NCBI RefSeq assembly: GCF_003860125.1
Contig: NZ_RQYL01000010.1
Location: 1 to 64,000, forward strand
Reading direction: 5' to 3'
Length of the DNA stretch: 64,000 nucleotides
From: Fretibacterium sp. OH1220_COT-178
GTDB lineage: Bacteria > Synergistota > Synergistia > Synergistales > Aminobacteriaceae
The notes under the pieces are model-generated. The model had not been told where the DNA came from, made no database searches, and was given only the letters and a program-made list of their open reading frames with translations. This document shows, piece by piece, positions 35,107-36,572 of the stretch. The translations under genes were made by a program, and so were the position numbers. Each line of letters opens with the position of its first letter. The first letter of the stretch is position 1.

Positions 35107-36036
35107 TTATTGCACTGCGCCCAGCAGGTGAAGCCACAGGGGTAAAGAGACCATGGAGAGCAGCACGGAGGCCGTCGTGCCCAGCGCACAGAAGTCGCTG
35201 TCCATGCCCATTTCCTGGGCAATGATGGTGGTGTTGACGGCCTCGGGCATTGCGGCCAGCAGCGTTCCGGCCTGAATAAAGATCGGAGGAAGCCCGAAGA
35301 AGGTCAGCACCGTATAGGTGACGATGGGATGGACGACCATTTTGAACAGCAGAAGCTTCCAGGTCGAGACAAGGGTACGGCCGGCGTTCCTCAACTCGAT
35401 TTTTGCCCCGAGCATCAGGAGGGCCAGCCCCGTTCCGATATCCGCGACCATTTTGAGGGACATGTCCAGCCATTGAGGCAGGCGGCTCAGGTCCAGCAGG
35501 ACGAGGAACAGAGCCAGGATGCAGGTCATGAAAAGAGGGTTCCTCAGCAGTTGGCGCCCCGTTTTTTTGAGGCTGTCGAACGAGAGTTCGCCGAAGAGGG
35601 CCAGCTGTCCGCTGCCGATCGACAGAAACTGCATGAAGGCCAGGGAAAAGGCAAGAAGCATGGAGCCCGCGGCAACGCCGGGCTCTCCCAGGGCAAGCCC
35701 CAGTATGGGCAGGCCGGCAAAGAAATGGTTGCCTCGGATGGACGTCAGGGAAAGGGTTGCGAAACGTTTGGGGGGCTCTCCTCGGCGGGCCAGGAGCCAG
35801 ACGGAGAGGACGGTGACGAGGTAGGGGGTACAGGCCGCCAGGGCGAAGGACCAGGGGTTCGGAATCCGGGTCTGGGCCCCCAGAATGCCTCGGAGCAGGA
35901 TGGCGGGCATGGCGAAGGCGTAGAGGAGGGCGTTGTTCTCCTTCAGGGTCTGAGGGGTGAAAAATTTCCTTTGGCGCAGAAACCATCCAAGGGCGATGAT
36001 CAGAAAAATGGGAAGGACGATCAAAACGGCTTGCAT
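35107..36036 (-). CDS. AEC-family transporter (auxin efflux carrier type)
   Basis: This 309-residue integral membrane protein has about ten hydrophobic segments, the first at 2-19 (AVLIVLPIFLIIALGWFL), with two related halves. NNALLYAFAMPAILLRG and ALLMLGAKIELRN are typical of the family. Members export small organic acids such as malate; the substrate here is unknown. The start is ATG 36036 with GGAG 10 nt upstream. The open frame continues upstream through the tandem palindromes, but that part has no ribosome site and is not coding. Confidence 0.88.
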   Translation of the reverse strand: MQAVLIVLPIFLIIALGWFLRQRKFFTPQTLKENNALLYAFAMPAILLRGILGAQTRIPNPWSFALAACTPYLVTVLSVWLLARRGEPPKRFATLSLTSIRGNHFFAGLPILGLALGEPGVAAGSMLLAFSLAFMQFLSIGSGQLALFGELSFDSLKKTGRQLLRNPLFMTCILALFLVLLDLSRLPQWLDMSLKMVADIGTGLALLMLGAKIELRNAGRTLVSTWKLLLFKMVVHPIVTYTVLTFFGLPPIFIQAGTLLAAMPEAVNTTIIAQEMGMDSDFCALGTTASVLLSMVSLPLWLHLLGAVQ

Positions 36037-36123
36037 TCCATTATCACTCCAAATGGCAACGAGTTTATGGGGCCGGGACGGACGGGCGACGCGCTTCTGG
36101 GGCCGTCCGGGAGGTTCGCGGGC

Positions 36124-36351
36124 ATCGCCGCAGCATTCGCAGGTTACACCTGCGAAGAGCTGGGCGCCTGCGCCTTCCTCTCGCGATATCCGCATCGCGA
36201 GAGGAAGATATCGATCGCCGCAGCATCCGCAGGTTACACCTGCGAAGAGCTGGGCGCCTGCGCCTTTCTCTCGCGATATCCGCATCGCGAGAGAAAGATA
36301 TCGATCGCCGCAGCATTCGCAGGTTACACCTGCGAAGAGCTGGGCGCCTGC
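36124..36351. repeat. 90-bp tandem palindromic repeats (2.5 copies)
   Basis: Copies start at 36124, 36214 and 36304, the last being a 48-bp partial. Each unit contains two hairpins. The first is TTCGCAGGT-TAC-ACCTGCGAA. The second has a perfect 14-bp stem (CTTCCTCTCGCGAT with its complement) around ATCCGC. The full copies differ at three positions. Two of them (unit positions 54 and 81) are partners in the 14-bp stem and change together from C-G to T-A. This resembles a REP/BIME-type element or a structured RNA. It lies between rubredoxin and the AEC gene. No copy occurs elsewhere in the window. Confidence 0.9.
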
Positions 36352-36357
36352 TAAAAT

Positions 36358-36389
36358 AAAAACGATTGACCGGCGGTCAATCGTTTTTT
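36358..36389. terminator. Terminator after rubredoxin
   Basis: AAAAACGATTGACC (36358-36371) pairs fully with 36375-36388 across a GGC loop, giving a U tract on either strand. On the minus strand it ends the rubredoxin transcript and isolates the tandem repeats and the AEC gene from it. Confidence 0.9.
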
Positions 36390-36413: not shown

Positions 36414-36572
36414 CTACTCCGGCTCGAACATGTCCTTCGTCACGGCGCAGACCGGGCAAACCCAATCGTCCGGAATATCCTCGAACGCGGTACCCGGAGC
36501 AATTCCAGAATCCGGGTCGCCCGTTTCGGGGTCGTAAACGTACCCGCAGACGGTACAGACATATTTCTTCAC
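36414..36572 (-). CDS. Rubredoxin
   Basis: This 52-residue iron protein carries a single Fe on four cysteines, C6 and C9 (CTVCGY) and C39 and C42 (CPVC). The fold residues [14 protein letters not shown] and [15 protein letters not shown] are canonical. Rubredoxins carry electrons in anaerobes, often to oxygen- or superoxide-reducing enzymes. The start is a GTG with GGGGAG 8 nt upstream. It is monocistronic, with promoter at 36638-36667 and terminator at 36358. Confidence 0.95.

Follow-up and report, generated by a model that had tools for sequence, protein, structure and literature searches.

The tandem array at positions 36124-36351 of the window, by which we mean the whole 64,000-nucleotide stretch of DNA that was analysed, is situated between two host genes encoded on the minus strand. 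Read along this strand, a rubredoxin gene (36414..36572; Pfam PF00301, E 5e-26) is followed by a terminator-like hairpin (36358..36388, minus strand; inverted repeat I5) that has an equivalent in array-free relatives, then by the array, which begins directly behind the T-run of the hairpin, and finally by a transporter gene of the AEC/Mem_trans family (35107..36036; Pfam PF03547, E 1.9e-28). Reading frames remain open through the array on both strands, with lengths of 341 and 206 amino acids on the plus strand and 452 and 83 amino acids on the minus strand. The suspicion of an earlier, sequence-only reading that such frames could mislead gene callers was justified: the 452-amino acid minus-strand frame extends the AEC transporter falsely at its N-terminus, an error into which the long open frames of the array would lead annotators. 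The effect of the array on the host is probably minor, that of a structured spacer ahead of the transporter gene. The window also contains two CRISPR-like arrays, at 137-583 and 1892-2476, which are about 1.3 kb apart and share the 30-nt repeat CTTTGAAACCTTCCTTTGAGGGATGGAAAC.

TRF delineates the array as 2.5 copies (2.53 of a 90-bp unit) with a period of 90 and a 97% match, and three sites distinguish the two full copies (36124-36213 and 36214-36303), in agreement with the sequence-only reading. Two of these differences are paired partners within the stem of the perfect 14-bp inverted repeats (36174-36207 and 36264-36297), where C-G has changed to T-A on both sides (CTTCCTCTCGCGAT/ATCGCGAGAGGAAG vs CTTTCTCTCGCGAT/ATCGCGAGAGAAAG); the compensatory exchange proposed for this hairpin is thus genuine. 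The third difference affects the short hairpin of the second copy, where it gives a C.A mismatch on the plus strand and, on the minus strand, a G.T pair. The 9-bp hairpin that had been ascribed to each copy does exist, but it is no more than the apical part of a more extended, bulged stem, P1, and in copy 2 it attains nine pairs only when the minus-strand G.T pair is counted. The natural reading strand of the array is the minus strand, on which P1 is followed by a second hairpin, P2, with the perfect 14-bp stem, and the copies are arranged head-to-tail. P1 of copy 1 occupies 36299..36353 and starts with TAGCAG at 36353 (matches to the covariance models introduced below: R1, 36257-36356, 95.8 bits; R2, 36299-36356, 63.6 bits), and its P2 occupies 36264..36297 (inverted repeat I7). 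Copy 2 consists of P1 at 36209..36262 (R1 match G000:C10:36167-36266; R2 match 36212-36260) and P2 at 36174..36207 (inverted repeat I6), which carries the two-sided change relative to copy 1, whereas in the partial copy 3 P2 is missing and P1 lies at 36124..36172 (R1 match 36115-36176, 47 bits). Folding is far stronger than in shuffled sequences, both for the array on the plus strand (z = -9.8) and for the minus-strand leader (z = -10.0).

In six relatives (G011, G044, G016, G018, G020 and G003) the rubredoxin and AEC genes are likewise adjacent, and the terminator and a short leader lie between them without any element. Since these syntenic relatives lack the array, the simplest reading is that it was inserted in the lineage leading to this genome. 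No close DNA copy of the 90-bp unit was found elsewhere in the genome or in 40 relatives, which is what a local duplication with chance covariation would predict, and the sequence-only reading had conceded that the array might be nothing else if further copies did not exist and the region were silent. They do exist: a weaker resemblance on another contig led to more units with the same architecture and different letters, and two covariance models, R1, built from an alignment of nine units, and R2, restricted to P1, revealed many dispersed copies. In this genome (G000) R1 yields 43 matches at E<=1, of which 30 fall below 1e-5, spread over more than 20 contigs, and R2 detects about 29 P1 cores; R1 matches were also obtained in eight more genomes of the family. 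With the same architecture at so many other sites and, as detailed below, covariation far beyond that of controls, an explanation by local duplication and chance is scarcely credible.

The family extends well beyond the immediate relatives. The R2 core was detected in 31 of 188 Synergistota genomes, representing 18 of 63 genera, and a scan of 85k species with a core pattern returned 68 stretches, nearly all of them from Synergistota. Outside this phylum, the pattern matched in several contigs of Sedimentibacter hydroxybenzoicus, in two further assemblies of Firmicutes type and, probably by chance, in a Pirellulaceae genome (L114), where the sequence does not appear to pair. At the sensitivity used, the element was absent from viral contigs, and phage and plasmid records gave no real match. 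In some loci such as L071, inverted partial copies stand beside forward ones. The end of contig C5 (L046) and the start of contig C12 (L047) of G000 both terminate within tandem copies of the same element, which suggests that the two contigs adjoin in the chromosome. At about position 3,050 of contig C46 of the same genome (L031/L049) a stretch of about 31 bp from the start of a gene (GGGGGAAATGCAGAATGAAAGGTGATCCTTT) is repeated on the flanks of an element, and genome G047 contains nine equal-scoring cores (L201-L208) whose surroundings are reminiscent of a larger element bounded by CCTAAATCCGCA...TGCGGATTTAGG.

The hallmark of the family is P1, in which three fixed extrahelical positions are combined with a variable tip (TWAGC, bulged A, GRC-GRCC...). 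In its outer part TWAGC pairs with GCTWA, followed by a bulged A that is invariant (23 of 23 sequences) and by GR paired with TC; further inward, a base is bulged out on the 3' side, and two blocks of four pairs, separated by another bulge, lead to a small internal loop and the tip. P2, of about 14 pairs, follows on the 3' side in the Fretibacterium-like lineage and is replaced by different tails in other lineages, so that the exact ends of the element are undefined family-wide; its size is 45-60 nt for the core and about 95 nt with P2. Two-sided changes are found in 22 of 30 pairs, and 93.3% of cells pair as opposed to 34-45% in slid controls, a level reached in none of 500 shuffles. Within the P1 stem, 99.1% of cells are paired across 23 sequences, with two-sided changes in 7 of 15 pairs. 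As the sequences and structures that entered R1 and R2 were picked by eye, a cleaner test is provided by 61 distinct cores, most of them outside model building, in which the first four inner positions are paired in 83.6% of cells as opposed to 53.8% in shuffles (0 of 2000, in shuffles that ignore relatedness). Pairwise identity drops from 80% in the outer core to 51% in the tip, and the tip still pairs. The folded form is under strong selection, as the sequence-only reading had surmised from a single pair.

On the element strand of Fretibacterium-like copies G.T pairs exceed A.C by 26 to 2, which suggests that the folded strand is the minus strand here; we attach little weight to this asymmetry because it is mainly confined to two columns and vanishes in the 61-core set (3 to 4). 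The same excess speaks for a functional RNA motif, which would work at the level of the transcript as a leader or 3' end structure, for instance by making mRNA 3' ends more stable or by damping read-through, its spread being secondary. Moreover, an open frame of 100 codons or more that runs into the element from upstream is closed by its 5' TAA or TAG in 9 of 30 copies, which places several copies at gene ends on the coding strand, even if the high G+C content of the genome means that some of these frames may not be real. Other copies, like the array in the window, reside in leaders or behind terminators. Beside the copies, neither a gene nor a pathway was noticed to recur, and no Rfam match above the gathering score was obtained. 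On balance we regard an RNA motif as unlikely.

The mode of insertion can be approached through two paralogous sites in one genome (L152 and L154), which differ by a copy nested within a copy. The nested copy shows no recognisable target duplication, and the case can alternatively be read as two tandem duplications. Over its full 5.3 kb, the L152 contig (BNVG01000126.1) forms a perfect inverted repeat centred on 158 bp, which probably arose as an artefact of amplification or assembly; the notion of a segment flanked by inverted elements was rejected on the grounds that the entire contig is a 2.6-kb perfect palindrome. A very small MITE mobilised by a DDE transposase and inserted at TA would account for the TWAGC/GCTWA ends, which put TA on both sides of P1, with TA-AGC...GCT-TA representing the target duplication, and it would sit well with the core in G047 that appears to lie inside a larger element with inverted ends. 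Against this, the piece inserted in the nested case, a single instance, runs past GCTTA to CATCA and leaves no TA duplication, and the conserved asymmetric bulges render the two ends unlike each other, which is unusual for terminal inverted repeats. A DDE-type MITE is in our view decidedly improbable.

We consider it probable that a single member of a dispersed, extragenic palindromic family of REP-like type has expanded locally into the 2.5-copy array, and that the members of this family, present in many Synergistota, have spread as mobile palindromes recognised by their fold. The best reading of the family as a whole is accordingly that of new REP-like, non-autonomous and fold-dependent mobile palindromes. 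In such a scheme the single strand of the element would fold, and a putative enzyme acting in trans would recognise the folded form via the conserved bulged base of P1, while pairing would be the sole requirement imposed on the tip; after insertion, tandem copies could arise by unequal recombination or replication slippage over the 90-bp unit. Present-day activity is doubtful because the copies are highly diverged. Searches of element-bearing genomes for Y1_Tnp and for the integron integrase did not reveal a mobilising enzyme. Every Y1 transposase match found is free of elements to a distance of about 1.5 kb, and the loci of 15 Y1_Tnp matches contain no core. Y1_Tnp was not found in G003 and G011 (98% complete, with 14 and 25 copies of the element, respectively) or in seven further element-bearing genomes, several of the nine being incomplete. 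In G000, no R2 match was found around the Y1_Tnp genes, which speaks against the ends shared with a TnpA-bearing element by which an IS200/IS605-derived MITE would be recognised. The association with a RAYT that the sequence-only reading had envisaged is therefore not supported. A speculative and rather unlikely extension is that the single-strand-hairpin palindromes of Synergistota and Sedimentibacter would spread without any Y1/HUH transposase, by virtue of an unrecognised enzyme that reads the bulged P1 stem while the tip drifts under pairing only.

Several known systems invite comparison. The BOX elements of pneumococcus are built from hairpin modules that occur in tandem in variable numbers; the Synergistota element resembles them in its modular tandem hairpins and differs in sequence and architecture. 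The attC sites of integrons also fold as single strands and have extrahelical bases, a variable tip and an unpaired spacer, but the R-box GTT is not conserved in the Synergistota elements, which are dispersed instead of being lined up in cassette arrays. An integron origin fails on the absence of the integrase (TIGR02249), which scored over the cut-off in none of 10 element-bearing genomes. CGTC-tagged REPs are REP-like palindromes with stems of 8-9 bp and without a dedicated transposase (PMC3733652), a combination of traits that the element shares as regards the palindrome and the missing transposase; CGTC occurs in many P2 stems, but paired, and not as an unpaired tag beside an 8-9 bp stem. 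REP-like elements have been catalogued for other phyla, and the catalogue of CGTC REPs makes no mention of Synergistota, which is not among the phyla it lists (PMC3733652). A search of a paper library for REP or RAYT in Synergistetes likewise returned nothing.

The closest known kind are the REP and BIME elements of the RAYT-associated GTAG superfamily. An unpaired GTAG tag at the element end is absent, since in almost every one of 23 copies the TWAGC end forms pairs with GCTWA, and for want of a GTAG or CGTC tag and of a Y1 transposase in several element-bearing genomes we do not file the family as RAYT-mobilised REPs. The element is furthermore longer than REPs, has three fixed single-base bulges, and with about 29 cores in G000 stays below the more than 100 copies usual for REPs. 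The suggestion of a REP/BIME-like nature was nonetheless largely right, supported as it is by dispersed, covarying copies, even though the unpaired GTAG tag is absent and the RAYT link is not supported. A fold-selected family without tag or RAYT offers a clean case for how palindromic repeats spread, and the covariance models make further copies findable. Like REPs and BIMEs, the elements are short, extragenic, imperfect palindromes in many copies, often positioned just behind genes, and some form mosaics with inverted copies: alternating palindromes reminiscent of BIMEs are seen in loci such as L071, while the array in the window is head-to-tail. Both also possess a conserved irregularity in the stem, and in the REPs of E. 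coli it is a bulge that is required for the activity of their transposase (PMC8266576).
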